A stretch of DNA of 64,000 bases from Actinocorallia herbida. GTDB lineage: Bacteria; Actinomycetota; Actinomycetes; Streptosporangiales; Streptosporangiaceae. Every line of letters starts with the position of its first letter. Within the stretch, counting starts at the first letter, position 1. The stretch covers positions 8,184,001-8,248,000 of the forward strand of contig NZ_RJKE01000001.1 of NCBI RefSeq assembly GCF_003751225.1, in the 5' to 3' direction. Position numbers and translations under genes: made by a program. A model generated the notes under the pieces. The model had not been told where the DNA came from. It did no database searches and worked only from the letters and a program-made list of their open reading frames with translations. Of this stretch, positions 9,491 to 44,619 are shown one piece after another.

Positions 9491-9502
9491 GGTTGCATGT
9501 GA
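9491..9502. repeat. upstream element copy 1 (GGTTGCATGTGA)
   Basis: This 12-bp sequence is identical to the copy at 10316-10327. It lies 249 bp upstream of the paralog A start, against 252 bp for paralog B. A shared operator or duplication remnant is inferred. Confidence 0.45.
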
Positions 9503-9537
9503 GGTCGGTCATAATCTCCAGGACGGTGCGCAAAAGA

Positions 9538-9568
9538 AGGCCCGGCACCTCGGGAAGGTGCCGGGCCT
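9538..9568 (-). terminator. intrinsic terminator of secreted paralog B
   Basis: A perfect 13-bp stem (AGGCCCGGCACCT / AGGTGCCGGGCCT) with a 5-nt loop is followed on the minus strand by TCTTTTG. It lies 25 bp after the stop of the gene ending at 9594. Confidence 0.85.
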
Positions 9569-9593
9569 GGGAGCTCACCGATGAAGGGGGCTC

Positions 9594-11356: not shown

Positions 11357-11389
11357 ACGGACGGGCCGGGAAGCCCGGCGCCCGCGTCC

Positions 11390-12298: not shown

Positions 12299-12303
12299 GG
12301 GGA

Positions 12304-14225: not shown

Positions 14226-14277
14226 CGGTCAGCTCTTCTCAAGGCTTGCGTTCGGACGAAGGGGGACACCAATGAGC

Positions 14278-14319
14278 GGAGCCCGGCGACGGCTGCGATC
14301 ACAGCCGCGGCCGGGCTCC
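14278..14319 (-). terminator. terminator-like hairpin after rpmE
   Basis: A 10-bp outer stem (GGAGCCCGGC / GCCGGGCTCC) encloses an inner CGGCTG/CAGCCG stem, starting 10 bp after the rpmE stop. There is no U-tract, so termination may be partial, letting prfA be read through or use its own promoter. Confidence 0.6.
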
Positions 14320-14328
14320 CGCCGACCC

Positions 14329-14550
14329 CTACTTGTCCGCGGCCTTCTTCTTGCCGAAGCGGGCCTCGAACCGGGCCACGCGGCCGCCGGTGTCGAGCAG
14401 CTTCTGCTTGCCCGTGTAGAACGGGTGGCACTGGCTGCACACGTCGGAGCGGATCTGGCCGCTCTCCACGGTGCTGCGGGTGGTGAAGGTCGCCCCACAC
14501 GTGCAGGTCACTTCGGTGACCACGTAGTCGGGGTGGATGTCGGGCTTCAT
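14329..14550 (-). CDS. rpmE: 50S ribosomal protein L31 (zinc-binding form)
   Basis: L31, 73 residues, opens with [16 protein letters not shown]. Four Cys (positions 16, 18, 38, 41) form the CxC...CxxC zinc site, so this is the C+ form used under zinc-sufficient conditions. AAGGAG lies upstream of the ATG. It is separated from rho by the two-component system, unlike the usual rho-rpmE adjacency. Confidence 0.96.
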
Positions 14551-14662
14551 GGATGGATCTCCTTCGAGACGGCGCCGGATCGACCGAGACGTCCGCGGCC
14601 GGGAACCGGAACCTGTGGGCACCTCCAGTATGACGGATACCCGAACATGCCGGGACCAGCGC

Positions 14663-15298
14663 CTATTCCCCGCCTCTGAGCTGGGCCAGAACCGCCTGGA
14701 CCCGTCGATGGACGTCCCGCGAGGGCGCCAGGCCGAGCTTGGCGAAGATCGCCGAGATGTGCTTCTCGACCGCGCCCTCGCCGATGAACAGGGCATGCGC
14801 GAGGCCCGCGTTGGACAGGCCCCGCGCCATCAGGCCGAGCACCTCGCGCTCCCTGGGCGTCAGGTCCCGCAGGGGGTTGCGGCCGAGGAGCTGGGTGACG
14901 ACCTCGGGGTCGATCACCGTGCCGCCCCCGGCGACCTCATGGACCGCCGCGGTGAACTCGGCGACGTCGGAGATCCGCTCCTTGAGCAGGTAGCCGACGC
15001 CCCTGGCGTCCCCGCCGAGCAGCTCCGCGGCGTACTGCTCCTCCACGTACTGCGAGAGGACCAGCACCGGCGTCGGCCGGACCGCCAGCGCCGCTCGCAG
15101 CCCTTCGTCCCCGAACCCGGGCGGCATCCGGACGTCGGTGATCGCGAGGTCGGGGCGGTGCTCGGCGACCAGGGCGACGAGGGCGTCGCCGTCCCCGCAG
15201 GCCCCGACGGTCTGGACGCCCTCGTCGGCGAGCAGCCGGACAAGGCCCTCCCGCAGGAGGACCGAGTCTTCGGCGATCACGACGCGCATGGGTCCCAT
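14663..15298 (-). CDS. NarL/LuxR-family response regulator
   Basis: A 211-residue two-component regulator. The receiver domain (1-125) has acidic ED at 10-11, the phospho-acceptor Asp in LAITDVRMP and the Lys in YLLKERI. The LuxR-type HTH begins at [15 protein letters not shown] (about 146). Its start is 1 bp after the stop of the partner kinase gene, so the two form an operon. The target is unknown. The pair interrupts the rho-rpmE neighbourhood. Confidence 0.93.
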
Positions 15299-15299
15299 T

Positions 15300-16595
15300 T
15301 CACCAGGAGCAGGGCAGGATCGCCCGCACGACCGTCGGTCCCCCGGCGGGGCTGTCCACCGCGAGGGTCCCGTCGATGGTCGCGGCCCGGTCGGCGAGTC
15401 CGGCGAGGCCGCCGCCCGGGGCGAGTGCCGCGCCGCCGCGCCCGTCGTCGCGGATCTCCACGACGACCACGTCGCCCTCCCTGCGCGCCTCCACCGCGGC
15501 CTGCGCCGCCCCGGCGTGCTTGGCGACGTTCGTCAGGGCCTCGGCAACGGTGAAGTAGGCGATCGACTCGACGGCCGCCGGCGGCCGCTCGGGCAGGTCC
15601 ACGGAGATCCGCACCGGGACCGGGCAGCGCCCGGCCAGCGCCGACAGCGCGGCCTCCAGGCCCCGGTCGGTGAGGATCGCCGGGTAGATCCCGCGGGCGA
15701 GGTCGCGCAGTTCCGCGATCGCGGCGCGGGCGCCGTCGTGCGCCTGTGCGATGAGCTCCCGTGCCTGCTCGGGATCGCTGTCGATCTTCGCGCGGGCCCT
15801 GCCGATGTCCATCGCGACGCCGAGGAGCCGCTGCTGCGCCCCGTCGTGCAGGTCGCGCTCGATCCTGCGCCGCTCGGCCTCCGCCGCGTCGACGCCGCGC
15901 GCCCTGCTGGCCTGGAGCTGGGTGGTCCGGGCGACCAGCGCCTGCTTCTCGGACGGCCCCAGCAGCAGCTTGGCGAGCGCCACGTGGGCGACGCCGACCG
16001 CCTTGACGACGTAGAGGACGACGATGAGGAGGACGATCCCGAGGAGGGTGTAGGGAAGCCCGTCGTACCAGGAGTCGATCCGCGGCTCGTAGTTCCCGAA
16101 CTCGGGCACGAAGCCCTCATTGATCTGCCCGCCTACGGGGGCGAGGATCAGCGCGGCGGTCAACGCCCACAGCACCATGGAGCCGACGAAGTAGCCGAAG
16201 GCCAGCGGAATCCTGATGATCTGGAAGGCGAGGTCCTTCCAGGTGGCCGGGTCGCCCAGGATGGTCTTTCCCTTGGCCGTCAGCGAGCCCTGCGGGAGCT
16301 GCCGGTACGGGTCGGGGATGCGCGTGCCGAACGCGGCGCCGATGAGCCGCCGGTCGAGTATCGAACCGCCGCGCAGCAGCACCAGCAGCAGCGCCCAGAC
16401 CAGCAGCCCGACCCAGATGATCGTGGTCGCGGCGGCCAGCGGGACCCCGGCGGCCAGGATCACGAACCAGCCGAGGCCGAGCACGGAGGTGAGCGGGAAG
16501 TACAGCGCGGCCTTCCAGACCGTCGCGTCCCGCAGCAGGTCAAGGGGCTTGGGGACGGCGACGAGGTTCGGCTGACGTCCTGCGGGGTCGGCCAT
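15300..16595 (-). CDS. HisKA_3-type sensor histidine kinase
   Basis: A 431-residue membrane kinase partnered with the adjacent NarL-type regulator. The N-terminal sensor has about four to five hydrophobic helices in two groups (about 20-70 and 130-215). The dimerisation/phospho-acceptor helix has ERRRIERDLHDGAQQRLLGV (His in DLHDG). The HATPase domain carries EALTNVAKHA and the G-box GGGLAGLADR. The start is ATG 16595, 8 bp after GAAGGAG; the adjacent upstream GTG is also possible. The stimulus is unknown. Confidence 0.92.
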   Translation of the reverse strand: MADPAGRQPNLVAVPKPLDLLRDATVWKAALYFPLTSVLGLGWFVILAAGVPLAAATTIIWVGLLVWALLLVLLRGGSILDRRLIGAAFGTRIPDPYRQLPQGSLTAKGKTILGDPATWKDLAFQIIRIPLAFGYFVGSMVLWALTAALILAPVGGQINEGFVPEFGNYEPRIDSWYDGLPYTLLGIVLLIVVLYVVKAVGVAHVALAKLLLGPSEKQALVARTTQLQASRARGVDAAEAERRRIERDLHDGAQQRLLGVAMDIGRARAKIDSDPEQARELIAQAHDGARAAIAELRDLARGIYPAILTDRGLEAALSALAGRCPVPVRISVDLPERPPAAVESIAYFTVAEALTNVAKHAGAAQAAVEARREGDVVVVEIRDDGRGGAALAPGGGLAGLADRAATIDGTLAVDSPAGGPTVVRAILPCSW

Positions 16596-30849: not shown

Positions 30850-31578
30850 TCAGCCGCCGACGAGCCGTTCGAAGTAGGACGGCAGGCCGTCGTAGGGGTT
30901 GGCACCGGCGCGGTCGGTGATGTAAAGGACGCCGGTGTTCCGGCGGCGGGCGAGGGCGGTGACGACCTCCAGGTCTTCGGGGCGGCAGCCGTAGACGAGA
31001 TGGCAGAAGCGGCCCGGGTCGCTGAGCAGCGTCCAGGCGGGCGGTTCGGCCGACGGGTAGGCGGTGACGGGGCCCTCGAAGGTGACGAGGACGTCGGCGA
31101 GGGCCAGGTAGGCCGGATCCGGGTAGGTGCCGTGGTTGAACACGACGAGCCCGGCTCCGGCGTCACGGGCCTTGCCGGTGACGCGGTGCATGTAGGCCAG
31201 GCCGTCGACGCCCGCCGGGACCTGGTCGAAGAAGACGTCGGTGACGCCGTACCAGCGCCGGTAGCGCTTGAGATCCGCGAGGACGAGTCCGGCGTCGCGG
31301 CGGCCGTAGGAGACGTCCACGTACGCCGCGACGGTCCCGCGCCGCGCCGCGATCCGGTCCCGCGCGCGGGCGAAGACCGGGTCGGGCGCGGTGCCGGGAC
31401 CGCTCGCGACGTTGAGCACGACGCAGCGCAGCCGCGCGTCGCACACCCGCTCCCACAGGCCGGGCCGCACGTGCGGCGCGAAGTAGGCGGGGACGATGAC
31501 GCGCGGCCCGAGGGCGCAGGCCGGCGACGGCACGGCCGCCGCCGACATCGCGCACAACATGTTGCGCCTGCTCAGCAA
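30850..31578 (-). CDS. secreted spherulin-4-like (GH135/GH114-like) hydrolase
   Basis: A 242-residue protein with a Tat-like N-terminus (LSRRNMLCAMSAAAV, signal cleaved near SPACA). It is followed by a TIM-barrel-like domain opening PRVIVPAYFAPH and containing the acidic motif GVTDVFFDQVPAG, typical of spherulation-specific family 4 proteins. Fungal Sph3 of this family cleaves galactosaminogalactan. Start TTG 31578 is chosen: GGGAG is upstream and it creates the twin Arg; ATG 31560 is the alternative. It overlaps the preceding reductase gene by 7 bp. Confidence 0.8.
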   Translation of the reverse strand: MLSRRNMLCAMSAAAVPSPACALGPRVIVPAYFAPHVRPGLWERVCDARLRCVVLNVASGPGTAPDPVFARARDRIAARRGTVAAYVDVSYGRRDAGLVLADLKRYRRWYGVTDVFFDQVPAGVDGLAYMHRVTGKARDAGAGLVVFNHGTYPDPAYLALADVLVTFEGPVTAYPSAEPPAWTLLSDPGRFCHLVYGCRPEDLEVVTALARRRNTGVLYITDRAGANPYDGLPSYFERLVGG

Positions 31579-32417
31579 GGGCTCTCCCAGAGGTCCCTGA
31601 CGGAGGTCGCCAGGGGGGTCACGGGGGTCCAGCCGAGTGCGGCGGTGGTGGTGCCGAGGTCTGCGCGCTGCCAGGGCACCGCGGCCGACCTCGCCGAGCC
31701 GTCGCCGTCCTCGGCGAGAGTGCGGCCGGGGACGAGGGCGAGCAGGGAGCGCACCAGGTCGCGGGAGACCGTGGCGGTGCCGCTGCCGACGTTGAGGATG
31801 CCGGTGGCGGCCCTGGCCGCGGCGGCGAGCACCGCGTCGGCGACGTCCCGGACGTCGACGTAGTCGCGGACCGCGCCGAGCGGCCCGGTGCGCACCTCCG
31901 AGGCGCCGTCGGCGAGCTGCCCGGCTACCCCGCCGAGCAGCGACGCCCGGGGCGCGCCCGGCCCGATCGGGTTGAACACCCGCAGCACGACCGAGCCGGG
32001 CACGCTGAGGGCGAGTTCGGTCCCGGCGAGCTTGGTCATCCCGTAGGCGCCGACCGGCCTGGGCGCGGTCGACTCGGACACGGGCACGCCCTCGGTGACC
32101 CGCCCGTACTCGGCGGCCGAGCCGACGTGCACGAGCCTGCCGCCCTCGGTCCGGACGGCCTCGGCCAGCGCCGACACCAGGGTGACGTTCCCCGCGACGA
32201 GGTCGGCGGGCGTGCCGGAGACCGCGCCCGCGCAGTTGACGACGGCGCTCGGCCGCAGCCGCCTGACGAGTTCGCACATCGCGTCGTGGGAGGGGTCGAG
32301 CTTCACGTCGGCGGCGTCCTCGGTGCGGGAGGCGGTGACCACCTCCCAGCCCGAGGCGCGGTCCGCGACGTGCCCGCCGAGGAACCCGGTGGCGCCGAGC
32401 AGGAGCATCCGCCTCAT
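31572..32417 (-). CDS. NAD(P)-dependent sugar epimerase/reductase (extended SDR)
   Basis: A 281-residue extended SDR with the nucleotide-binding LLLGATGFLGGHVA and the catalytic YGMTK (YxxxK) in GAYGMTKLAG. The tail is shorter than full epimerases, resembling RmlD/reductase-like members. ATG overlaps the NTase stop by 4 bp. Likely makes or modifies the nucleotide sugar used by the PelF-like transferase; substrate unknown. Confidence 0.85.
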   Translation of the reverse strand: MRRMLLLGATGFLGGHVADRASGWEVVTASRTEDAADVKLDPSHDAMCELVRRLRPSAVVNCAGAVSGTPADLVAGNVTLVSALAEAVRTEGGRLVHVGSAAEYGRVTEGVPVSESTAPRPVGAYGMTKLAGTELALSVPGSVVLRVFNPIGPGAPRASLLGGVAGQLADGASEVRTGPLGAVRDYVDVRDVADAVLAAAARAATGILNVGSGTATVSRDLVRSLLALVPGRTLAEDGDGSARSAAVPWQRADLGTTTAALGWTPVTPLATSVRDLWESPC

Positions 32418-33127
32418 CCGCGGCTCCCGAGCAGGGCCGGGCGCAGCGCGTCGAACTCGGCGTTGGCGCGGTCGTAGTCGTCGGGCCGCCCGATGTCGAG
32501 CCAGTAGCCCTCGAAGGCGAAGTCGAGGGGGCCCTGCCCCGCGGCGAGCTGGTCGAGGACGAGCTCGTCGAAGCCGAGCGGCAGGCCCGGGGTGTACCGG
32601 TCGAGCACCGCGCGGTTCAGCGCGTAGACGCCCATGCTCACGCGGTAGTCGAAGCTGGGCTTCTCGGCGAACTCGGTGATCCGGCCGGCGGTGGTGGTGA
32701 GCACGCCGAAGTCGATCTTGACCTCGCGGCGGTAGGTCGCGACCGACAGGTGCGCCCCCGCCGCGCGGTGGGTGGCGAGCAGCTCGCCGTAGCGCAGGTC
32801 GGTGAGGATGTCGCCGTTCATCACCAGGAAGTCGTCGGGCAGCTCGCGCATGGCGAGCAGCGGGCCGATGGTGCCGAGCGGCGAGTCCTCGGGCGCGTAG
32901 TCGACGCGCAGGCCCCAGCGCTCCCCGTCGCCCACGTAGGAGCGGATCAGGTGGCCGAGGTGCCCGATGGCGAGGGTGACCGAGGCGAAGCCCTGCGCGG
33001 CGAGCTGGTGCAGGACGATCTCCAGGATGGAGTACTGGTCGCCGATCGGGACCAGCGGCTTCGGCAGCGTCGTGGTGTACGGCCGCAGGCGGACGCCCTT
33101 GCCCCCGGCGAGGATGACAGCGTGCAT
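32414..33127 (-). CDS. sugar-1-phosphate nucleotidyltransferase
   Basis: A 237-residue NTP transferase with the signature AVILAGGKGVRLRPYTTTLPK split by one residue context, KPLVPIGD, and the metal-binding Asp in FLVMNGDILTD. Length is close to the RmlA/RfbF-like short class. It probably activates a hexose-1-phosphate with NTP. Flanked on both sides by SDR sugar enzymes and coupled to the downstream one. Confidence 0.9.
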   Translation of the reverse strand: MHAVILAGGKGVRLRPYTTTLPKPLVPIGDQYSILEIVLHQLAAQGFASVTLAIGHLGHLIRSYVGDGERWGLRVDYAPEDSPLGTIGPLLAMRELPDDFLVMNGDILTDLRYGELLATHRAAGAHLSVATYRREVKIDFGVLTTTAGRITEFAEKPSFDYRVSMGVYALNRAVLDRYTPGLPLGFDELVLDQLAAGQGPLDFAFEGYWLDIGRPDDYDRANAEFDALRPALLGSRG

Positions 33128-33180
33128 GTGACGGGCCTTTCGCAGATCAGAGAAGTTCGGACGCGACGTGAGGGGCGTGG

Positions 33181-34167
33181 TCAGACGGCGTAGACGCCGG
33201 GGCGGTACCGGTCGAGGTTGCCGGTGAGCCACGCGGCCGTCTCGGCGAGGCCGTCCCGCAGCGTGTGCTCGGGCCGCCAGCCGGTGGCCTCGCGCAGCCG
33301 GGTCGAGTCGCAGACCAGCCGCATCACCTCCGACGCGTCGGGCCGCATCCGCTCGGCCTCGCTGACGAACCGGACCTCGGGCCTGCCCATGGCCTCGGCG
33401 ATCGTCGCGGCGAGGTCGCCCATGGAGATCTCACCGCCGACGCCCGCGTTGAACACCTCGCCCTCGATCCCGGGGGCGACCATCGCGGCGTGGAAGGCCG
33501 ACGCGGTGTCGCGCACGTACGTGAAGTCGCGGGTCGGGCTGAGCGCGCCGACCTTGATCTCCGTCATGCCCGCCGCGATCTGGGAGATGACGGTGGGGAT
33601 GAACGCGCGCGCCGACTGGCGGGGGCCGAAGGTGTTGAACGGCCGCAGCGTCACCACGGGCAGGCCGAAGCTGGCGTGGTAGCTCTCCACCAGCTTGTCG
33701 GCGGCCGCCTTGGACGCCGCGTACGGGGACTGCGTCTGGATCGGGTGGGTCTCGGCGATGGGGACGGTCCTGGCCGTCCCGTAGGTCTCGCTGGTGGAGG
33801 TGTGCACCATGCGCGGCGTCCGGTGCTCCTTCACCGCCTCCAGCACGTTGAGCGTGCCGGTCACGTTGGTGTCGACGTAGCTGCGCGGGGCCCGGTAGGA
33901 GTACGGGATCGCGATCAGCGCGGCGAGGTGGAGCACGGCGTCGGCGCCGTCCACGAGCGCGCCGACGGACCCGGGGTCGCGCACGTCGCCGAGCTGCACC
34001 TCGACCTGCGTGAGGACGTCGGGGGCGAGGGTGTCGAGCCAGCCCCAGGAGCCCTGGGAGTTGTACTGGGCCATGGCCCGCACCCGGTGGCCACGTGCCA
34101 CGAGGTGCTCCACGAGATGGGAGCCGATGAAGCCGTCGGCTCCGGTCACCGCGACGAGGTTCTGCAT
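33181..34167 (-). CDS. NAD-dependent epimerase/4,6-dehydratase (LegB-like SDR)
   Basis: A 328-residue extended SDR with the Rossmann motif VTGADGFIGSHLVEHL (about 7-22), HTSTSETYGTA and the catalytic YAASK. FNTFGPRQSARAFIPTVI and the C-terminal half resemble LegB/GDP-mannose 4,6-dehydratase-type enzymes that make 4-keto-6-deoxy sugars; a UDP-HexNAc 4-epimerase role is also possible. It follows the membrane protein by 45 bp. Confidence 0.87.
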   Translation of the reverse strand: MQNLVAVTGADGFIGSHLVEHLVARGHRVRAMAQYNSQGSWGWLDTLAPDVLTQVEVQLGDVRDPGSVGALVDGADAVLHLAALIAIPYSYRAPRSYVDTNVTGTLNVLEAVKEHRTPRMVHTSTSETYGTARTVPIAETHPIQTQSPYAASKAAADKLVESYHASFGLPVVTLRPFNTFGPRQSARAFIPTVISQIAAGMTEIKVGALSPTRDFTYVRDTASAFHAAMVAPGIEGEVFNAGVGGEISMGDLAATIAEAMGRPEVRFVSEAERMRPDASEVMRLVCDSTRLREATGWRPEHTLRDGLAETAAWLTGNLDRYRPGVYAV

Positions 34168-34212
34168 GTACGAGTCCGTTCTTCGTCTTTGAAGTGCGTC
34201 ATCTGAGGGGTC

Positions 34213-35592
34213 TCACCGGTGCGTCGTGGTGCGCCCGAGCACCACGACCGCGTAGGCGAGCAGCGCCGTGAAGAGCAGGACGGCGCCGTGGAGCTGGACC
34301 GCGCCCGGATCGGGCGCGGCGGTCATGAGGACCGCGGTCTCGGCGAGCAGCGCGCCCGCGCACAGCCCGACCGGGGCCGCGGTGCGGCCGAACGACTGGA
34401 GCATCAGCGCGACGACCAAGGCCCCGCCGAGGAGCAGGAAGCACACGAAGACCCGGCCCTCCCCCGACGTCGGGCCGGCGATCCCGATGGCGGTGCCGAG
34501 CAGCAGCGCCAAGGCCAGGAGGAAGCGGGCGAGCAGGTCGCCGAAGGCGCTCCGCGCGCCCGCCGCGAAGGCCCGCGGGGTGCCCGAGGTGTGCAGCAGC
34601 CCGTGGCCGCGCGCCCGGAACGCGGTGAGCAGCCATTCGGCGGGGCCCATCGCCACCGACAGCGCGACCATGGCGGCGCTGGTCGCCGGGGCCGGGGCCC
34701 CGTAGCCGCCGTAGGCCGCGACGATGGTGAAGGTGAGCAGGCCGCCCGCGAGCAGGCCGAACGCCGCGTAGGGCACGGCCCTGGCGGCCATCACCCAGCT
34801 CACGCCGGGGTCCTCGCCGCCGCGGGTCCGCTCGAGCGCCAGCGCGGCCACGGACAGCCCGGTGAGGGCCCAGCCGAACACCTGGAACTGCCAGGCGAGC
34901 CCGGCGAGGGTGACCGCGGTGCCCGGCAGCAGGCAGACCAGCAGCCATAGCTCGGCGCCCATGACGAGCGCGGCGGTCGCGGCCAGCAGATAGAAGCTCT
35001 GCGCGCAGGCGACGGCGATGATCGCCGGACCCGATCCGACCGCGATCCCCAGTGCCGCCGCCACGAGGGACAGCAGCGGGGTGCCTACCAGGACGCCCAA
35101 GGCGAGGATTCGCCTGCGCGCCCCGTCCGTCCGGGAGTAGGCGATGGCCGCCACGCCCTGGGAGACGGGCCAGCACAGGACGAGCGAAAGGGTGAGCACG
35201 AGACCACCGGAGCGCTGCCCGAGCAGGGGGCCCGCCGCGACGTAGCCGAGGCCGGGGAGCCCGAACAGCACCCCGCGCAGGAGATAACGCAGAGCCGTCT
35301 TCCACAGGGGTCCTTCGGCGGCCCACGGGTTGTCGTGGGAGATCGGCCGCGGGGGCCGCCGGACCGAGGTGTCGTAAAGCCGCTGGGCGAGGGTGAACAC
35401 GTCGTCGAATCCGTATCGGTGGGCCGCCCTGTCGCCGAAGCCTTCGGCCTCCAGGGCCGCGGTCACCTCCAGCGGGTCGACGGCGGAGGCCAGGAGACCG
35501 GGAAGGCCCTCGGGCAGTTCCGTCTCGTCGGGGACGAGGCCGTCGGGCAGGTCGTCGCCCAGGTCGTCGAAGCGGGTGAGCACCTCGGTCAT
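34213..35592 (-). CDS. polytopic membrane protein of the polysaccharide cluster
   Basis: A 459-residue protein. About 120 polar residues at the N-terminus (rich in Asp/Glu/Leu) precede about 10-12 membrane helices. No named family is recognised. PelG, which follows PelF in Pel operons, is also polytopic (MOP-like), but no PelG-specific motif is seen. The ATG overlaps the PelF-like stop by 4 bp, so it is coupled. Likely an exporter or polymerase partner; inferred from position only. Confidence 0.75.
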   Translation of the reverse strand: MTEVLTRFDDLGDDLPDGLVPDETELPEGLPGLLASAVDPLEVTAALEAEGFGDRAAHRYGFDDVFTLAQRLYDTSVRRPPRPISHDNPWAAEGPLWKTALRYLLRGVLFGLPGLGYVAAGPLLGQRSGGLVLTLSLVLCWPVSQGVAAIAYSRTDGARRRILALGVLVGTPLLSLVAAALGIAVGSGPAIIAVACAQSFYLLAATAALVMGAELWLLVCLLPGTAVTLAGLAWQFQVFGWALTGLSVAALALERTRGGEDPGVSWVMAARAVPYAAFGLLAGGLLTFTIVAAYGGYGAPAPATSAAMVALSVAMGPAEWLLTAFRARGHGLLHTSGTPRAFAAGARSAFGDLLARFLLALALLLGTAIGIAGPTSGEGRVFVCFLLLGGALVVALMLQSFGRTAAPVGLCAGALLAETAVLMTAAPDPGAVQLHGAVLLFTALLAYAVVVLGRTTTHR

Positions 35593-37064
35593 GCGCCCAC
35601 CGGCTCTCGCGCGGCGGGCGGCCGGGCGCCGGCCAGTTCCGCGTAGACCGTGCGGAAGGAGGCGACCGCCTGGTCGACGGTGAAGTCCTCCAGCGCGCGG
35701 CGCCGCGCCGCGCCGCCCATGCTCCTGCGCCCAGCCCGGTCGCGCAGGAGCCCCAGGGCCGCCTCGGCCATCGCCGCCGGATCGCGCGGCGGCACGACCA
35801 GGCCGCACTCCCGCCCCCGGGAGTCCGGCCCGACCGCCTCGGCCACGCCGCCCACGTCGGTGGAGACCGTGGGCCTGCCGCAGGTCATCGCCTCGATGAG
35901 GGTGTAGGGGAAGCCCTCGGAGATGCTGGAGAGCATCACCACCGTCCCCGCCGCGTAGGCGTCGCGGATGTCGTCCACCCGCCCCTCGAAGGTGACGGCC
36001 TCGGCCGCGCCGAGCTTGGCGGCCAGCGCCTCGCACTTCGCGCGGTATCCGGCGTCGCCGCCCCCGAACAGCCGCAGGACCGCCTCGGGGACCTCCTTGC
36101 GGACCAGGGCGAACGCCCGGATGAGGGTCTCCAGGTCCTTGATCGGGTCGATCCGCCCGGCCCAGCTCAAGGTGGGCACGGCGGGTTCCGGCCCGGCCGG
36201 GGGGAACGCGCCGGGGTCCACCCCGTTGTAGATGGTCCGGATGGCCTCGGGACGGGCGCCGCAGCGCACCTCCCAGCGCTGGTTGTAGCGGTTGCCGGGG
36301 GTGATGAGGTCGGCCGTCCGGTAGCCCTCGGCGCACAGCAGCCGCAGGAACCGCAGCATGAGCGCCTTCACCGGCCAGGTGTAGCCGCGGGCGTAGCCGA
36401 GGTAGCGCTCCCGCAGGTAGATGCCGTGCTCGGTGAGGCAGATGGGCGTCCCGTGCGCCCACTTCGCCGCGAGGGCGGGCAGCACCGCGACGCCGTTGGA
36501 CACGACGTGCGTCAGGTCGTCCTTCGGCTGGGGAAGGGCCAGCGGGCGCAGCGCGTGGTCCAGCAGGGAGACCGCGGTGAGCGCGTCGTGCACGCTCGGG
36601 CGGATCCCTTCGGGCATCGCCTTGCGCGCCCACTCCTCCATCAGCCAGACGACGGGTCCCTCGTCACCCAGGGCAGGCACGAGTCCGGGACCGAGGTCGA
36701 ACAGGGCACGCAGGACCCCGTCGAACTCGGCGGTCTCCGCGGTGTCGGCGGCGCGGCCGCCTGCTCCCCCGGGCGCCTCCGCGCCCCGTGCCGTCAGCGC
36801 CAGCAGGGCACGGAAGGCGTCGGCGAAGGAGCGGGCCGCCTTGCCCGCCCGCCGCCTGCCGCGCGGGGCCGGGCCCCACAGCGCGAAGGGCTCGACGCGG
36901 ACATGCGCGGGCGGGTCCCACACCCGCTTCTCCAGGCCGGTGCCGGTGAGCGCGACGACCCGGAAGTCGTGCTCGGGCATGCCGCGCACGAGCTGGTCGC
37001 ACCACACGCTCACCCCGCCGAACGCGTGCGGGTAGGTGCCCTCGGTGACAAGGGTGATCTTCAT
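35589..37064 (-). CDS. PelF-like GT4 glycosyltransferase
   Basis: A 491-residue cytoplasmic GT-B enzyme. The opening VTEGTYPHAFGGVSVWCDQL is characteristic of the PelF-like (DUF3492) N-terminal domain. The GT4 C-domain has LSWAGRIDPIKDLETLIRAF and the donor-site E...E motif in SISEGFPYTLIEAMTCGRP. PelF uses UDP-GlcNAc/GalNAc to polymerise Pel, and a related domain occurs in fungal Gtb3. Coupled by ATGA overlaps to both neighbours. Confidence 0.88.
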   Translation of the reverse strand: MKITLVTEGTYPHAFGGVSVWCDQLVRGMPEHDFRVVALTGTGLEKRVWDPPAHVRVEPFALWGPAPRGRRRAGKAARSFADAFRALLALTARGAEAPGGAGGRAADTAETAEFDGVLRALFDLGPGLVPALGDEGPVVWLMEEWARKAMPEGIRPSVHDALTAVSLLDHALRPLALPQPKDDLTHVVSNGVAVLPALAAKWAHGTPICLTEHGIYLRERYLGYARGYTWPVKALMLRFLRLLCAEGYRTADLITPGNRYNQRWEVRCGARPEAIRTIYNGVDPGAFPPAGPEPAVPTLSWAGRIDPIKDLETLIRAFALVRKEVPEAVLRLFGGGDAGYRAKCEALAAKLGAAEAVTFEGRVDDIRDAYAAGTVVMLSSISEGFPYTLIEAMTCGRPTVSTDVGGVAEAVGPDSRGRECGLVVPPRDPAAMAEAALGLLRDRAGRRSMGGAARRRALEDFTVDQAVASFRTVYAELAGARPPAAREPVGA

Positions 37065-39046
37065 ACCGTCGCCGCACCTACCGTGAGGGTGACGGCGCCC
37101 GTCTGGTAGGCCGAGCGCTCACCCGCGTACTTCTCGCCGAAGACGACGAGGTTCAGCAGCCCCGTCCTGGTGCCCTCGGGCACGGTGACCGGCACCTGGA
37201 CGCCGGAGGGCGCGCCGGAGACCTTGACCTTGCCGTCCTGGAGGTAGGCGGTGACCTGCTTGCTCGCGGCGCGCCAGGCGGCCTGCCGCTTGAGCTCCGC
37301 GCCGTTGTCGCGCATCCGCTGGTTGACCAGCGGGCTGTTGGCCGCGAACAGCGCGCCGTAGTCGGCGAGCACCCGGTCGAGCAGCGGGTAGAGGATGCGC
37401 TCCTCTGCCATGTTGGACTGGTGCACGTAGTGCGGCCGCGGGTCGTTGCGGAGGATGTGCGCGAGGGTGATCCTGGCGTCCAGCGGCACGATGTGCCCCA
37501 GGTAGCCGGTCGCGGGGTCCAGCGGGTCGATGCAGGTCATGATCTGCGGGTTGTCCTCGCAGATGCCGCTGCCGCCGTCGGCCCTGGAGGTGTAGATCCA
37601 GTTGTACTCGTCGGCCATCTCCGCGGCGGTGCCCACGTTGAAGTAGTTGGCCATCGGGTAGCGCGGGACGGTCAGGGCGGCGCCGACGGCGCGCTGGTCG
37701 AAGTCGCGGGAGGCGTCCGAACCGAGCCACTTCACGCCGGTGTCGGCGGCGGCGAGGGCGAGGTTGGGGTTGTCCTCGGGCTGCTGCGGCAGGATCTTGA
37801 GGCCGGAGTGCTCGCCGGTCACCAGTTCGTCGGCCTGGAGCGCGAAGCCCTGGCCGGCGGCCCAGGTCCGGTTGTCGGCGATCTGGGCCTTGAGGTAGGC
37901 GCGGGTCTGCCACACCGGCTTGCCCTGGGCGTCCTTCTTGCACGCCCAGGGGCTGACCGTGAAGTCCTGCTCGCATCCGAGGTAAGTGTGGTCGAGCGTG
38001 TGGTTGGCCCAGCGGAACTTCGTCCGCTGCTGCTTGAACGCGGTCAGCAGGGGGTCGCCGCCCTCGTTCGCCACGATCTCCTTGCTCGTGCCGCCGTTGA
38101 AGTACAGGTCCAGGGGGAACGCGCGCTGCGCCTGCCAGTCGACGGCCGCGGTGACGTCTGCGGGGGTCATCCGGATGTCGGGGGTGGTGACCGAGGGGTC
38201 CGTGCAGTTCTCGCCGGGGGTGCAGTTCTGGTCGCCGCTCCACCTCGCGTCGCGGGCGAAGACGTCGTCCACGTGGACGCTGAAGTACTGCCGGTTGATG
38301 CCGAGGTGGACGCCCTTGGTGAGCCACGTGACGAGGCCGTGGCCGAGCGCGCGGAACTGGGTCTGGTACTGGTTGGCGCTGAACGTCAGCACCATCTGGG
38401 ACCTGGTGCCGCTGCTGTACACCCCGGCGAGGGTCTTGCCTCCGGAGGTGAGGTAGGGCTCGAAGTGCGCTCCCGCCGCGTCGGGGAGCGGCGTGGCGGG
38501 GTAGCCGTAGGTCTCGGGGACGGAGGGCGCCAGGTTCTCGAAAGGCACGCCGCCCTTGAGGTAGCGGAAGGCGCCGGCCTTGGCGGTGGCCGTCAGCTCC
38601 GCGGTGGTGCCGTCCAGCTCCCCGGCGCTGGAGGGGTAGTCCAGGCCGACGTCGGGGGTCGGGTACACGTACGAGCTGATCTGCCGGACGCCGAACTGCC
38701 GCTCGAACTCGGCGAGCGCGGTCATCTCGGCGGCGTCGCCGAACGGGGCCGCGTTCGGGAGGACGACGCCCTGGTACTTGGCCCGCGCCGCGCCGCCGAC
38801 GGTGTCCTGGAGGAACGCGCGGGTGATGGCGGGACGGCCTGGCGCGCTCAGGTCCACGAGGTCGTAGGGGACGCCCTCGCTGTCGAGCTGGGCGGCCATC
38901 GCCGCGACGGACGGGCTCGACCCGTCGGTCACCACGAGGACCTTGAGGTCGATCCGCGGCCCCGCGGCCTGGGCGGCCGTGGGCAGGGCCACGAGGCCCG
39001 CGGTCAGTGCGAACACCGACAGGACCCGTATGCCGGGACCTTTCAT
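37061..39046 (-). CDS. secreted polysaccharide deacetylase-like protein (Agd3/PelA-like)
   Basis: A 661-residue protein. Signal peptide (about 1-27, cleavage TAAQAAG), then an N-terminal alpha/beta domain (LKVLVVTDGSS), a beta-rich middle, and a NodB-type deacetylase region with VHVDDVF (about 257-263) and the metal motif NHTLDHTY (H at about 348 and 352). A beta-sandwich-like tail follows. The architecture fits Agd3 (CE18)-type partial deacetylases of galactosamine polymers. GGAGGAG lies 5 bp before the ATG. First gene of the cluster. Confidence 0.82.
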   Translation of the reverse strand: MKGPGIRVLSVFALTAGLVALPTAAQAAGPRIDLKVLVVTDGSSPSVAAMAAQLDSEGVPYDLVDLSAPGRPAITRAFLQDTVGGAARAKYQGVVLPNAAPFGDAAEMTALAEFERQFGVRQISSYVYPTPDVGLDYPSSAGELDGTTAELTATAKAGAFRYLKGGVPFENLAPSVPETYGYPATPLPDAAGAHFEPYLTSGGKTLAGVYSSGTRSQMVLTFSANQYQTQFRALGHGLVTWLTKGVHLGINRQYFSVHVDDVFARDARWSGDQNCTPGENCTDPSVTTPDIRMTPADVTAAVDWQAQRAFPLDLYFNGGTSKEIVANEGGDPLLTAFKQQRTKFRWANHTLDHTYLGCEQDFTVSPWACKKDAQGKPVWQTRAYLKAQIADNRTWAAGQGFALQADELVTGEHSGLKILPQQPEDNPNLALAAADTGVKWLGSDASRDFDQRAVGAALTVPRYPMANYFNVGTAAEMADEYNWIYTSRADGGSGICEDNPQIMTCIDPLDPATGYLGHIVPLDARITLAHILRNDPRPHYVHQSNMAEERILYPLLDRVLADYGALFAANSPLVNQRMRDNGAELKRQAAWRAASKQVTAYLQDGKVKVSGAPSGVQVPVTVPEGTRTGLLNLVVFGEKYAGERSAYQTGAVTLTVGAATV

Positions 39047-39128
39047 AGAGTCTCCTCCGTAATCAGCTTGTTGCCGTGTGTAGCGTCTTTCATCCGGCAC
39101 ATGCCGTGGGGGAGAATCGGGTCCCGTT

Positions 39129-39806
39129 TCATGAACGGGCCGGTCCTAGGACCCGCCATCGGGCGACGGCGTGCTCGCGGTCGTCGGCCTTCAGACGGCG
39201 GTAGATCTGGTGGACGTGGTTCTTCACCGTTTTCTCGGATATGTAAAGCTCGCTGGCTATGCGGCGGTTCGACCAGCCGCGGGCGATCAATTCCATGACC
39301 TCCGCTTCGCGCGGCGTCAGGCTGTGGCCGAATCCGCGGGTCCGCCCCGGCGCCTCCGGTGACCCTCCGTGCAGCCAGTCGACCAGGGCGGTCGCCACCG
39401 GCGGCGACAGGTAGCCGCGGGACTGCGCGGCCGCCGCGACCGCCTCGGCCAGCTCCGCCGCACCGAAGTGCCCATGCGCCAGCACCGCGTGAGCGCCCGC
39501 GCGCAGCGCCCTGACCAGCAGCGCCGGACTCTCCTCCGGGGCGAGCACCACGACCTTGTGCACGGCGGCGAGGCGCTCCACCTCGGCGAGGCCGCGCGGC
39601 CCTTCGAGCCCCACCACCACGACCGCGGCCTCCCCCTCTTCCTCTTCCCCGTCCCCCTTCTCCTCGCCGCCGCCCTCCCGGACGGGCCGGGCGGCACGGT
39701 CGGCGACCAGCTCGATCCCGGCGGCCCCGCGGAGCAGGGCGGCCACCCCCAGCTCCAGCACGGGATTGCGCTCCACCACCCGGACCCCGACCGCGACAGA
39801 TGACAT
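39129..39806 (-). CDS. LuxR-family transcriptional regulator
   Basis: About 225 residues. The N-terminal part is a degenerate receiver-like domain (VRVVERNPVLELGVAALL) with an inserted Glu/Gly-rich acidic loop (about 48-62). It lacks the usual phospho-acceptor Asp (VVVVGLEGPRG), so phosphorylation is unlikely. The C-terminal HTH has SLTPREAEVMELIARGWSN. ATG 39806 is chosen; the frame continues up to 39884. It lies 82 bp before the deacetylase on the same strand and is the likely local regulator. Confidence 0.82.
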   Translation of the reverse strand: MSSVAVGVRVVERNPVLELGVAALLRGAAGIELVADRAARPVREGGGEEKGDGEEEEGEAAVVVVGLEGPRGLAEVERLAAVHKVVVLAPEESPALLVRALRAGAHAVLAHGHFGAAELAEAVAAAAQSRGYLSPPVATALVDWLHGGSPEAPGRTRGFGHSLTPREAEVMELIARGWSNRRIASELYISEKTVKNHVHQIYRRLKADDREHAVARWRVLGPARS

Positions 39807-40011: not shown

Positions 40012-42090
40012 GTGATTTCGCGAAGCGCCGTCGTGGCATTTATCGCCCTGCTCGGAGTGCCGCTCGTGGCGGTCTCCGGCTCGTCGGCCGCCGCGCCGGG
40101 GCCGTGCGGCGGCATCTCCGCGCGGCCCTGGTGCGACCGGGACCTGAAGCCCGACAAGCGCGCCCGCCTCCTTCTCAAGGCGATGACACTGGAGGAGAAG
40201 ATCGGGATGATGGCGGGCGACGACGCACTCGGCCCGCTGCAGACCCAGAACAACGCGAACGCGCATGAGGGGACCGTCCAGGGCATCGCCAGGCTCGGCG
40301 TGCCGACCGTCCGCATGGCCGGGGGCGGCCCCGCCGGGATCAGACAGGGCGAAGGCACCGCGATGCCCGCCCCCATCGCCCTCGGCGCGTCTTTCTCCCG
40401 AAGCGACGCCGCCCGCTACGGCCGGGTCGTCGGCGACGAGGGCAGGCGCAAAGGCAACGACATCATTCTCGGCCCCGCCCTGGACATCATGCGGCTCCCC
40501 AACGCGGGCCGCTCCTACGAGGCATACGGCGAGGACCCCTACCTCACCGCCGAACTCGGCGCCTCCTGGATCACGGCGGCCCAGGGGCGCGGCGTCATGG
40601 CGATGGTGAAGCACTACCCCGCCAACAACCAGGAGACCGACCGCTACACGATGAACGCGGTCGTCGGCACCCGCGCGCTGCGCGAGATCTACCTGCCCCC
40701 GTTCGAGAAGGCGGTCCGCGCCGCCGACGCCGCGGCCGTCATGTGCGGCTACAACAAGGTCAACGGCAAGGCGTCCTGCGCGAACGGGACCTTCCTCGGC
40801 AAGGTGCTGCGCGGGAACTGGGGCTTCCAGGGCTTCGTGGCCTCCGACTGGCTCGTCGGCGCGAAGAACACCGTCGCCTCCGTGCAGGGCGGCATGGACG
40901 TGGAGATGCCCATCGGGCTCGTCTACAGCAAGGACAGGCTGACCGACGCCCTGCGCGACAAGAAGATCACCGCCGGGCAGATCGACGCGCGGGTGCGGAA
41001 CTACCTGCGCACCCTCTTCGCGTACGGCGTCTTCGACCGCGCGGCCTACCCCGACCAGCCGCAGACCATCGACGTCGGGGCGCACGACCTGACCGCGCGG
41101 TCGATCGCCGAGGACGGCATCACCCTGCTGAAGAACGACGGCGTCCTGCCACTGGCGCAAGGCGCGAGCCTCGCCGTCATCGGCTCGGCCGCCGGGGAGT
41201 ACATCAGCGGTATCGGCTCCTCCCAGGTCACCCCGCGCGACCCCGTCACGGTCCTTGCGGGCCTCCAAGCGCGCGCAGGCGGGCCCGTCACTTACGCCGA
41301 CGGGTCCGACCTCGGCCAGGCCGCCGCGACGGCACGCGCCGCCAAGGTCGCCGTGGTCGTCGTCGCCGACCAGCGCGAGGAGGCCGCGGACCTCAAGTGC
41401 CTCAAGCTGACGTGCGGCGCCCCCGACCGGGAGAACCAGGACGCGCTCGTGCGCGCCGTCACCGCGGCCAACCCCGACACCGTCGTGCTCCTCCAGACCG
41501 GCGGCCCGGTGCTCACCCCCTGGCGCGGACGGGCCGCGGCCGTCGTCGAGGCCTGGTACCCGGGCGAGCGCGGCGGGAGCGCGGTCGCCCGCGTCCTGTA
41601 CGGCGACGCCGAGCCCGGCGGACGGCTTCCCGTCACGTTCCCCGTCAAGGACGTCAAGGCCGCCAAGGGCGGGACCGTCCGGTACACCGAAGGGCTCCAG
41701 GTCGGCTACCGCCGCGTCAACGCGCGCAAGACGCCCGTCGCTTATCCCTTCGGTCACGGCCTGACGTACACGACGTTCAAGTACAGCGGCATCAAGGTGA
41801 AGGGCGACCGGGTCCAGGTGACCGTCACCAACACCGGGGCCCGCGCGGGCACCGCGGTCCCGCAGCTCTACCTCACCTTCCCGCGGACCGCGGGCGAGCC
41901 GCCGCGGCAGCTCAAGGGCTTCACCAGGCTCGAGCTGAAGCCGGGCCAGGCCCGCCGCGTCACCTTCACCCTCGACAAGCGCGCCCTCTCCGTCTGGAAG
42001 GGCGGCTGGAAGGTTCCGCACGGCTGCTTCACCCTCGAAGTCGGAGCGTCCAGCCGGGCCCTGCCCTTGGCCGCCCCGCTGTGCCGCTGA
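40012..42090 (+). CDS. secreted glycoside hydrolase family 3 protein
   Basis: A 692-residue beta-glucosidase/beta-xylosidase-type enzyme with a signal peptide (about 1-27). The N-terminal barrel has the KHYPANNQETDR motif and the nucleophile Asp in FVASDWLVG (about 279). The second domain (about 370-560) and a C-terminal fibronectin III-like domain (RQLKGFTRLELKPGQ) complete the GH3 architecture. It likely releases sugars outside the cell, fitting the nearby nagA. The start GTG has no strong ribosome binding site. Confidence 0.92.
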   Translation: MISRSAVVAFIALLGVPLVAVSGSSAAAPGPCGGISARPWCDRDLKPDKRARLLLKAMTLEEKIGMMAGDDALGPLQTQNNANAHEGTVQGIARLGVPTVRMAGGGPAGIRQGEGTAMPAPIALGASFSRSDAARYGRVVGDEGRRKGNDIILGPALDIMRLPNAGRSYEAYGEDPYLTAELGASWITAAQGRGVMAMVKHYPANNQETDRYTMNAVVGTRALREIYLPPFEKAVRAADAAAVMCGYNKVNGKASCANGTFLGKVLRGNWGFQGFVASDWLVGAKNTVASVQGGMDVEMPIGLVYSKDRLTDALRDKKITAGQIDARVRNYLRTLFAYGVFDRAAYPDQPQTIDVGAHDLTARSIAEDGITLLKNDGVLPLAQGASLAVIGSAAGEYISGIGSSQVTPRDPVTVLAGLQARAGGPVTYADGSDLGQAAATARAAKVAVVVVADQREEAADLKCLKLTCGAPDRENQDALVRAVTAANPDTVVLLQTGGPVLTPWRGRAAAVVEAWYPGERGGSAVARVLYGDAEPGGRLPVTFPVKDVKAAKGGTVRYTEGLQVGYRRVNARKTPVAYPFGHGLTYTTFKYSGIKVKGDRVQVTVTNTGARAGTAVPQLYLTFPRTAGEPPRQLKGFTRLELKPGQARRVTFTLDKRALSVWKGGWKVPHGCFTLEVGASSRALPLAAPLCR

Positions 42091-42910: not shown

Positions 42911-43504
42911 GTGGTCCCCGTGGTCTCAGTGTTCGCACCGCGCGCGGCGCTCGCCGCCGCCGTCATCGGCCTCTGCGTCGTCGCCCCGGCGTCGGCCGCC
43001 TCCGCCGCGCCGAAGGGGTGCGTCATCGGCACCTGGAAGCAGACGGGCATGTCCGGCACGGTCATCGCCGACGACTCCTACACCGAGGTGCACGGCGGCG
43101 CGGGCGTGAAGCTGACCATCGCCCGGACGTCCGTGCGCTACGACTTCAACAAGTCGGCCAAGGAGACCACGACCGGCGAGGTCGAAGGCATCCACTGGTC
43201 CGCCTGGACGAAGTACACCAAGCTGCTCTCGTTCGACGCGACCGTCAAGGGATCCGCGTCGGGAAGCGTCCGGCTCAAGCCCAAGACCGCCGAGGGCGGC
43301 GCCATCGGGCGGAGCCAGGTCGCGAACCTGGGCCCCGAGCGGAGCTGGAAGCTGCGCACCACCTACCGCGGTGGCGGCCAGGAGAGCATCGCGCCGATCA
43401 AGTCGTCGTTCACCTGCAAGGGCAAGTCCCTCACTCTCAAGTCCGGTTTCTCCTTCGACGGACGCAAGATCACCGTCGACCGCTTCTTCACCCGGGTGCC
43501 ATGA
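42911..43504 (+). CDS. small secreted protein, tandem paralog 2
   Basis: A 197-residue protein with signal peptide (about 1-30, cleavage ASAASAAP). It shares with its neighbour the opening C.IGTWKQT, the central KYDF/RYDF-like strand and the ending SFTCKGKSLTLKS...FFTRVP. GTG has AGGAG 5 bp upstream. Its stop overlaps the nagA start (ATGA), so the two are translationally coupled. Function unknown. Confidence 0.78.
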   Translation: MVPVVSVFAPRAALAAAVIGLCVVAPASAASAAPKGCVIGTWKQTGMSGTVIADDSYTEVHGGAGVKLTIARTSVRYDFNKSAKETTTGEVEGIHWSAWTKYTKLLSFDATVKGSASGSVRLKPKTAEGGAIGRSQVANLGPERSWKLRTTYRGGGQESIAPIKSSFTCKGKSLTLKSGFSFDGRKITVDRFFTRVP

Positions 43505-44619
43505 CCGTCTACACCAACGCAAGGATCGTCACGCCCACCGGGGTCATCGGCCGCGGCTGGCTGGAGGCCGAACACGGCCGCATCACCGGGGTCGGCACCG
43601 GCGACCGGCGGGGCCGGGACCTCGCCGGGGCGTGGCTGCTGCCCGGCTTCGTCGACCTGCACGTGCACGGCGGCGGCGGGCACTCGGCCATGACGTCCGA
43701 GGCCGCGATCCGCGAGGCGGTCGCCTTCCACCGGGCGCACGGCACGACCACGACGCTCGTCAGCCTCGTCACCGCGCCCCTGCCCGACCTCGCCGAGGCC
43801 GCGGGCTGGATCGCCGACCTCACCGAGGAGGGCCTGGTCGCGGGCTGCCACTTCGAGGGCCCGTTCCTCGCGCACTCGCGCTGCGGCGCGCAGAACCCCG
43901 CGGCGCTGCGCCCGCCGAGCCTCGCCGACCTGCGGCTGCTCCTGGACGCCGGGCGCGGCACGGTCAGGCAGGTCACCGTCGCGCCGGAACTGGTGAACGA
44001 GGAGACCGGCGAGGACGGCATCGACCTCGTCCGCGAGCTGGTCTCCCGCGGCGTCGTCGCCGCGGTCGGGCACACCGACGCCACCTACGCGCAGGCCAAG
44101 GCCGCCTTCGCCGCGGGCGCGTCGCTGGTCACGCACGCCTTCAACGGGATGCGGGGGCTGCACCACCGCGAGCCCGGCGCGGTCGTGGCCGCCGCCGAGT
44201 CCGCCGGGGTGGTCCTCGAGATCATCAACGACGGCATCCATCTCGACCCGGCGATCGTCCGGATGATCGACCGGATCGCGCCCGGCCGCCTCGCCCTCAT
44301 CACCGACGCCATCGACGCGACCGGGATGGGCAACGGCGAGTACCTGCTCGGCGCGATGCGGGTGCGGGTCGAGGACGGCACCGCCCGGCTCGTCGAGAAC
44401 GGCTCCCTGGCCGGCAGCACCCTGACGATGGACGCGGCCCTGCGCAGGGCCGTCCAGGACGTCGGCATCCCCATCGAGACCGCGTCGCGCTACGCCTCGG
44501 CGGTCCCCGCCCAGGCGCTCGGCCTCGCCGATCGGGGCGCGCTCGTCCCCGGCAGGCGCGCCGACCTCGTCATCCTGGACGCCGACCTGCGGGTCGTCGA
44601 GGTCCCCGAAGCCGACTGA
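43501..44619 (+). CDS. nagA: N-acetylglucosamine-6-phosphate deacetylase
   Basis: NagA (372 residues, amidohydrolase fold) makes GlcN-6-P from GlcNAc-6-P in amino-sugar use and wall recycling. Metal and substrate motifs: FVDLHVHGGGG (about 50-60), CHFEGPFLA, VGHTDATY, HAFNGMRGLHHREPG and the catalytic Asp in LITDAIDATGM. Start ATG overlaps the stop of the secreted paralog. No nagB or nagK is adjacent. Confidence 0.95.
   Translation: MTVYTNARIVTPTGVIGRGWLEAEHGRITGVGTGDRRGRDLAGAWLLPGFVDLHVHGGGGHSAMTSEAAIREAVAFHRAHGTTTTLVSLVTAPLPDLAEAAGWIADLTEEGLVAGCHFEGPFLAHSRCGAQNPAALRPPSLADLRLLLDAGRGTVRQVTVAPELVNEETGEDGIDLVRELVSRGVVAAVGHTDATYAQAKAAFAAGASLVTHAFNGMRGLHHREPGAVVAAAESAGVVLEIINDGIHLDPAIVRMIDRIAPGRLALITDAIDATGMGNGEYLLGAMRVRVEDGTARLVENGSLAGSTLTMDAALRRAVQDVGIPIETASRYASAVPAQALGLADRGALVPGRRADLVILDADLRVVEVPEAD

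Follow-up and report, generated by a model that had tools for sequence, protein, structure and literature searches.

What does a Pel-like exopolysaccharide operon of a Gram-positive bacterium polymerize when it brings its own candidate genes for making a nucleotide sugar? The question is raised by seven minus-strand genes of Actinocorallia herbida, which lie in the window analysed here, a stretch of 64,000 nucleotides (positions 8,184,001-8,248,000 of the 9.8 Mb single-contig genome). Comparisons of sequence and fold establish the gene set, the protein families, the Agd3 fold and the catalytic residues of the deacetylase, and the conserved linkage of the genes. Results of our analysis indicate that the operon is very probably a machine for a deacetylated amino-sugar polymer, and we incline, with modest confidence, to the view that it is a Gram-positive operon for an exopolysaccharide similar to Pel or galactosaminogalactan (GAG), fed with a dedicated nucleotide-6-deoxy-hexosamine. 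The core of such operons has been known since 2020; the less expected part is a cassette of LegB-like, nucleotidyltransferase, and short-chain dehydrogenase/reductase (SDR) genes. The operon suggests that actinobacteria may make a new, cationic exopolysaccharide.

Organization of the operon

The seven genes run from 39046 down to 30850; the regulator directly upstream of them is given in the last line.

37061..39046, minus strand: Agd3-type (CE18/CBM87-like) polysaccharide de-N-acetylase (P0002), by CBM87_Agd3, PDB 6nwz, and fold
35589..37064, minus strand: PelF-type family 4 glycosyltransferase (GT4; DUF3492 + GT4; P0004), by NCBIfam PelF and Pfam DUF3492
34213..35592, minus strand: membrane protein in PelG position (P0003), weakly similar in its model to flippases of the multidrug/oligosaccharidyl-lipid/polysaccharide (MOP) superfamily, by AlphaFold/Foldseek
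33181..34167, minus strand: LegB-like SDR (P0005), NAD-dependent nucleotide-sugar 4,6-dehydratase by similarity, from TIGR04180 and motif
32414..33127, minus strand: sugar-1-phosphate nucleotidyltransferase (P0006), by NTP_transferase and PDB 8yre
31572..32417, minus strand: RMD/RmlD-like SDR (P0007), probable reductase of a nucleoside diphosphate (NDP)-4-keto-6-deoxy-sugar, by PDB 2pk3
30850..31578 (TTG start) or 30850..31560 (ATG start), minus strand: spherulin-4/GH135-type hydrolase (P0001), by PF12138 and PDB 5d6t/5c5g
39129..39806, minus strand: LuxR/NarL-type regulator with a GerE helix-turn-helix (Pfam GerE, 1.4e-18), directly upstream of the operon

Three of the junctions are 4-base overlaps (37061-37064, 35589-35592, and 32414-32417), and the remaining gaps within the operon are of 45, 53, and 11 bp. 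A preliminary description of this DNA had proposed an operon of seven minus-strand genes that includes a deacetylase-like protein, a PelF-like GT4, and a spherulin-4-like protein. All its open reading frames (ORFs) were located at the positions given there, the gene set is conserved across relatives, and each of the three family assignments is borne out by the matches presented below.

Probable polymer machinery

The deacetylase matches CBM87_Agd3 of Pfam at the cut-off (27.6 bits). PDB entry 6nwz (Agd3) was matched with E 1.3e-7 by the single sequence and with E 5.8e-21 by a 16-member profile, both sequence matches being mostly confined to the N-terminal part; Pfam Agd3_CE (PF25115) gave no listed match to the window protein and did match its homologue of locus L168 (loci fetched from other genomes are denoted by L numbers). 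The AlphaFold model, with a predicted local distance difference test (pLDDT) value of 87, has 6nwz as its top Foldseek match (E 5.5e-30, template-modelling (TM) score 0.70), and in this predicted structure the protein has the three-domain fold of Agd3. Residues D260, D261, H349, H353, and H542 (pattern DD, HxxxH, H) are invariant in 16 aligned sequences and pair, by order and pattern, with Agd3 D377, D378, H510, H514, and H668, which are the base, the metal triad, and the acid. R462 is a mere candidate for the counterpart of Agd3 R613 and is replaced by Asp in three aligned sequences from the genus of the type-C loci described below. A Sec-type signal is visible by eye, and the protein is predicted to be a secreted Agd3-type enzyme that would deacetylate the polymer of its own operon.

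Among the best 80 of 141 relatives that were kept in the scan for related loci, the closest named relative of the deacetylase is that of Actinocorallia sp. API 0066 (80% identical). The runner-up in the Foldseek search was the human heparan sulfate N-deacetylase/N-sulfotransferase NDST1 (E 5.5e-17). A tandem trio of agd3-like genes is present in a Pseudonocardiaceae locus (L078:5251-12361), and locus L047 (positions 9221-14983) has a 1,920-residue ORF with an agd3-like part and two spherulin-4-like genes near it on the other strand.

The glycosyltransferase scores 154 bits on the NCBIfam PelF model (NF038011; cut-off 100), being the only protein of its genome above that cut-off, and matches Pfam DUF3492 with 3.7e-46. 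As a PelF that adjoins a true PelG scores 490 bits on the same model, the window protein is a distant member of the PelF family.

NCBIfam gave no match to the membrane protein, and none of 15 members of its family has a Pfam match better than E 0.09. Its AlphaFold model (pLDDT 85) contains about 12 long helices, with a helical N-terminal region ahead of the membrane part. The leading Foldseek matches are to MOP proteins, namely WzxE (1.8e-4), MATE (7.9e-4), and also MurJ, with TM of about 0.4-0.5, and just 2 of the 406 matches have E <= 0.001. PelG is a member of the MOP superfamily (PMC13254593), and the modelled protein, with its weak likeness to MOP flippases, is a probable exporter in PelG position. 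We rejected the idea that it is a PelG recognizable at the level of sequence: PF16933 had no match in the whole genome (the control matched in Thermotoga), and when the 15-member family was compared by hhalign with a single PelG sequence, no similarity emerged (probability 0.1%). The preliminary description had seen no PelD, PelE, or PelB partner; for PelD (PF16963) the genome search was also empty, but as no control genome matched either, this negative carries little weight.

The hydrolase belongs to PF12138 (spherulin-4; 2.6e-33) and matches PDB entries 5d6t/5c5g, its nearest solved relative being Sph3. According to a pattern search, the Asp and Glu motifs of the family are both present in 89 of 90 related sequences and both missing from L155. 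The residue that follows the Asp is Q in 79, R in 9, and H in 1 of them, and E in Sph3. The Asp of Sph3 that aligns with that of the window protein, D166, is taken by us to be the same residue as Asp196 in the published numbering. The published catalytic pair of Sph3 consists of an Asp, printed as Asp196, and a later Glu (PMC12054363), and we thus rejected the notion that the loss of the second acidic residue of Sph3 renders the enzyme dead.

The gene of this hydrolase may start at TTG 31578 rather than at ATG 31560. The TTG codon, six codons above the ATG, is proposed because it adds an SRRxxL motif, similar to that of twin-arginine translocation (Tat) signals, which by eye is also found in L060, L033, and L059 (and in the duplicates L032 and L036) among the 83 sequences inspected. 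A general secretion of the spherulin enzymes was rejected, as most of these 83 have, by eye, no signal before the domain.

Sugar cassette

The cassette is located between the genes of the membrane protein and the hydrolase. Its LegB-like SDR scores 443 bits on TIGR04180 (LegB), below the cut-off of 475, with the next family at 181 and GalE at 142 bits; two relatives score 450 and 463, and a LegB homologue from outside these clusters scores 436. The protein contains the motifs TSTSE (T125-S126-E127) and YAASK (Y149xxxK153). In Table 1 of PMC8987622, [ST]SE..YxxxK is the signature of GDP-mannose 4,6-dehydratase and [ST]DE that of dTDP/UDP-glucose dehydratases and of retaining dehydratases of UDP-N-acetylglucosamine (UDP-GlcNAc), while GalE is listed without such an acid pair. 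By its motifs, the signature of the LegB-like SDR is thus of the dehydratase type and not that of GalE. The substrate of Campylobacter jejuni LegB is GDP-GlcNAc (PMC7439481).

The nucleotidyltransferase matches NTP_transferase (1.2e-39) and PDB 8yre (E 1.6e-31), and GDP-mannose pyrophosphorylases are nearest to it. The top PDB match of the second SDR is 2pk3, GDP-6-deoxy-D-lyxo-4-hexulose reductase (E 1.6e-16 with the single sequence and 9.2e-40 with a profile). In locus L153 (positions 9805-11550), which comes from an actinobacterial genome of 2.2 Mb, the nucleotidyltransferase and the RMD-like SDR form a single 581-residue protein.

The preliminary description had matched the cluster with the epimerase function of fungal GAG clusters, which our results do not support. 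A GAG-type 4-epimerase of the Uge3 type would be expected to pass the GalE cut-off, 262 bits, whereas the LegB-like SDR scores 142 bits and the RMD-like one 49 bits, and the former has the SE dehydratase signature. Judged by these similarities, a cassette that activates an amino sugar as its NDP derivative, carries out a 4,6-dehydration, and reduces the 4-keto group is a better reading than a GAG epimerase, and therefore a plain GalNAc (N-acetylgalactosamine) polymer is not the best reading of the operon.

Distribution and cluster types

A match to the deacetylase was found in 29 of 297 genomes of the family and in 26 of 394 genomes of the class. In the fetched stretches, a gene was counted as present when it scored above 40 bits anywhere in the stretch (380 for legB and 120 for rmd); L032 and L036, duplicates of L060 and L059, respectively, enter the counts of loci and not the trees. 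The pelF-bearing loci were sorted by script into 75 free of the cassette (type A), 31 with legB, including the window (type B), and 11 of type C, which contain the nucleotidyltransferase and rmd without a close legB.

Since 31 fetched loci (29 distinct) carry the legB-type cassette beside pelF, the operon is not a product of chance. All seven genes were detected in 21 of them, so that the recurrence in other actinomycetes, which had been proposed as a check, is observed; one or more genes were not detected in the other 10, some of which lie at contig ends. In L153, agd3 is in a different place, downstream of the cassette. The cassette-bearing clusters come from Actinocorallia, Actinomadura alba, family relatives, a Pseudonocardiaceae, and Streptomyces that also have a cassette-free locus, in which they form a second, paralogous one. 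A homologue of the LuxR/NarL-type regulator is present in 12 loci, a count that includes the window and the two duplicates.

Among the type A loci, 55 of 75 have agd3, pelF, the membrane protein gene, the spherulin gene, and a gene of the GH114 family. The cassette-free L154, from outside Streptomyces, has a GalE above cut-off upstream of pelF.

The type-C loci consist of distant agd3, pelF, membrane protein, and nucleotidyltransferase genes and an RMD-like SDR gene, with GH114 in 9 of 11. In L049 and L157 the nucleotidyltransferase and rmd accompany an NDP-sugar dehydrogenase and another SDR of the SE type, a set that is again a plausible source of a 4-keto sugar; this suggests that type-C clusters may use yet another precursor.

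Proposed pathway and alternative explanations

From the above we infer the substrate sugars, the nucleotide, the linkage, the export role, and the biological effect of the operon. The nucleotidyltransferase would activate an amino-sugar-1-phosphate, probably GlcNAc-1-phosphate and probably as GDP-GlcNAc, the LegB-like enzyme would convert this to a 4-keto-6-deoxy form, which the RMD-like SDR would reduce at C4 to an NDP-6-deoxy-hexosamine of the N-acetylfucosamine (FucNAc) or N-acetylquinovosamine (QuiNAc) type. This precursor would be polymerized in the cytoplasm by the PelF-type GT4 and the chain exported by the MOP-like membrane protein. The secreted Agd3-type enzyme would strip some of the acetyl groups, leaving a cationic, adhesive polymer, and the spherulin/GH135 enzyme would trim or clear the nascent acetylated chain. 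Whether the product of the cassette is the backbone sugar of the polymer we regard as evenly balanced.

Several observations weigh against this pathway. Where studied, PelF and Agd3 act on UDP-GalNAc and GalNAc polymers, and a GDP-sugar is a presumed donor of the window PelF. The LegB-like SDR falls short of its NCBIfam cut-off, and the homologue from outside the clusters scores alike; the best solved relatives of the LegB-family profile are Pal, UDP-glucose 4-epimerase, and then dTDP-glucose dehydratases. The nucleotidyltransferase is assigned purely by its nearest relative. After 2pk3, the profile of the RMD-like SDR matches MoeE5, another GDP-6-deoxy-sugar reductase, and, further down, epimerases, and its best NCBIfam match is GalE, far under the cut-off. 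The MOP match of the membrane protein is weak, and hhalign shows no relation to PelG. Of the 31 type B loci, 12 have in their fetched stretch a gene of GH114, an endo-galactosaminidase family, which argues for galactosamine (GalN) in those polymers; in the whole window genome, no match to GH114 (PF03537) was found (the control matched in 2 of 14). Neither spherulin nor GH114 is present in 10 of the 75 type A loci, some of them being cut by contig ends.

GAG is itself a polymer of two sugars. The main rival explanation holds that the operon makes a GAG/Pel-like GalNAc/GalN polymer from housekeeping UDP-GalNAc, to which the cassette gives a second sugar (a co-polymer residue, a branch, or an end group), or that the two SDRs are epimerases. 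We consider it less likely, though it has several points in its favour: the PelF, Agd3-type, and spherulin-4/GH114 families work on GalNAc/GalN polymers in the cases studied (PMC7229062, PMC12054363, PMC13254593), GH114 accompanies part of the cassettes, the next relatives of each SDR include epimerases, and the cassette-free and cassette-bearing cores of Streptomyces are sisters in three trees (see below), which implies very similar machines. On the other hand, the operon has one glycosyltransferase, and a branch or an end group would need another one elsewhere; the LegB-like SDR carries the dehydratase signature and not that of GalE; and the polymer genes are tightly linked with LegB of the close subfamily.

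This linkage is seen in the 394 class genomes, 18 of which, besides that of the window, have a LegB match of at least 67% identity. In 15 of these 18, agd3 is found on the same contig at a distance of at most 10 kb; in the other three (L150-L152), LegB stands beside pelF and the genes of the membrane protein, the nucleotidyltransferase, rmd, and spherulin, and the fetched stretch has no detected agd3. For the 27 LegB matches of 59% identity or less, no agd3 was detected at such a distance, where only the top few agd3 candidates were scored per genome and a second agd3 could be missed. The close LegB subfamily thus appears to be dedicated to the polymer genes. By eye, two LegB homologues of 52-54% identity (L146 and L149), away from agd3, are next to or overlap a MurG-like frame.

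That the cassette serves another glycan, of the cell wall or of glycosylated proteins, and is merely co-transcribed with the polymer genes would agree with the 27 LegB homologues of 50-59% identity found away from a detected agd3. We regard it as very improbable, given that the close LegB of all 18 other class genomes is, as read in the fetched stretches, accompanied by polymer genes (agd3 within 10 kb in 15, pelF and the membrane protein gene in 3), and that one cassette cluster (L153) contains the nucleotidyltransferase-SDR fusion. Least credible of all is a locus for scavenging or antagonism, whose secreted Agd3-type and spherulin-4 enzymes could deacetylate and cut the GAG/Pel-like polymers of other microbes: scavenging offers no evident role for the polymerase of PelF type, the exporter-like membrane protein, or the products of the three precursor genes, all encoded in the same tight operon.

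Paired clusters in Streptomyces and the PelF loop

Six of the 11 named Streptomyces genomes that were chosen for their cassette-free locus also hold a separate cassette cluster; S. lavendulae and S. bikiniensis are examples of species with both. The remaining five have no LegB above 54%, and the cassette-free machine is therefore kept without the cassette. In L104, just agd3 and spherulin were seen at the cassette-free locus. In the trees of PelF (support 100/100), Agd3 (96/94), and the membrane protein (100/100), the cassette-free and the cassette-bearing sequences of Streptomyces form sister clades, and the other cassette-bearing lineages fall outside both, with all roots placed at midpoints. 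The PelF tree comprised 21 of 75 cassette-free, 29 of 31 type B, and 11 of 11 type C sequences; the Agd3 and membrane-protein trees had 49 and 50 sequences, with 5 of 11 type C loci offered. The deep sequences L153, L154, L155, L078, and L145 have long branches and an unsure placement. The simplest history that these trees suggest is a duplication followed by cassette loss.

The PelF of the window carries a GGVSVW loop. Position 20 (x in GGVS-x-W) is occupied by Thr in 74 of the 75 sequences from cassette-free loci and by Val or Ile in all 42 from type B and type C loci (40 distinct), the lone cassette-free exception being L048, which is cassette-free by script and belongs within the type-C genus. 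The PelF next to a true PelG has Ser at this position, and the PelF-like protein of the separate locus L171 has Thr. The pattern is suggestive of a specificity mark. Cassette-free-specific PelF residues in general were rejected as proof of a donor switch: with L154, L155, and L048 excluded from the position test, there are 7 such positions vs. 3 specific to the Streptomyces cassette clade, about as the stem branches of 0.47 and 0.23 predict.

It is possible, rather than probable, that some Streptomyces run two machines, one for a GalNAc-type polymer from housekeeping precursors and one for its 6-deoxy analogue of the window's type (a partly de-N-acetylated poly-FucNAc or poly-QuiNAc), with PelF retuned at the GGVS-T/V-W loop upon gain or loss of the cassette. 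If true, this would define a class of biofilm polymers that is new in being both cationic and methyl-bearing. The loop correlation is based on few independent changes, and the cassette-free-specific residues besides position 20 are accounted for by the longer stem branch. Single Streptomyces genomes offer a natural comparison of Pel/GAG-like machines with and without the cassette, and since both are in one genome, the specificity of polymerase, deacetylase, and hydrolase is directly testable.

Relation to known systems

Homologues of agd3 have been reported in 45 bacterial species; 35 were included in a tree, and for 30 of these the gene belongs to, or lies close to, an operon of enzymes predicted to act on carbohydrates (PMC7229062). 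A cytoplasmic glycosyltransferase and a membrane protein with multiple spans are common to all these bacterial agd3 operons; GH114 is frequent among them, and spherulin-4 is found in those of some Actinobacteria (PMC7229062). The core of the window operon (agd3, glycosyltransferase, membrane protein, and spherulin-4) is thus of a kind already known from Bamford et al. 2020. The suggestion that it might represent a distinct system therefore needs qualifying. The text of that paper names neither a dehydratase/nucleotidyltransferase/reductase cassette nor paired paralogous clusters, which its Fig. 8c or supplements may draw (PMC7229062). No description of a cassette-bearing cluster was found in the titles and abstract openings of the open-licence PMC papers searched.

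The genes of the fungal GAG cluster include uge3, gtb3, and ega3. This cluster, given for Neurospora crassa in PMC11356417, shares with the window operon the deacetylase, the spherulin (GH135) hydrolase, and the synthase function. It differs in having a UDP-glucose 4-epimerase in place of a dehydratase-type cassette, whereas the window operon has a separate gene for an exporter-like membrane protein and its genome lacks a detectable GH114.

With the Gram-positive pelDEA(DA)FG operon (PMC7112168) the window operon has in common a PelF-type GT4, a membrane protein that is, in the window operon, putatively MOP-like, and a deacetylase, the Pel deacetylase having a three-domain arrangement related to that of the window enzyme (PMC13254593). 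The deacetylase of the former is, however, PelA(DA) and not of the Agd3 type, and the window operon has the additional cassette, with no PelG match in its genome. The likeness to the legionaminic acid pathway consists in TIGR04180 (LegB) being the best family match of the LegB-like SDR; this SDR is below the cut-off, the other six genes are unlike the later steps of that pathway, and a reductase-like SDR follows.

In another actinobacterial lineage, locus L168 (positions 6969-16175) encodes a GAF-GGDEF protein, PelF (490 bits), PelG (475 bits), and an Agd3 with CE and CBM87 domains, with spherulin-4 on the other strand. By its gene content, this locus connects true Pel genes with the set of Agd3 and spherulin, PelG occupying the slot of the window membrane protein. 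In locus L169, frames similar to PelF, PelG, Agd3, and spherulin are arranged in the same way.

Neighbouring genes

Near the operon, on the opposite strand, ORF translations inspected by eye include a NagA-like gene (GlcNAc-6-phosphate deacetylase; 43018-44619, plus strand) and a gene for a secreted GH3-like hydrolase (40012-42090, plus strand).

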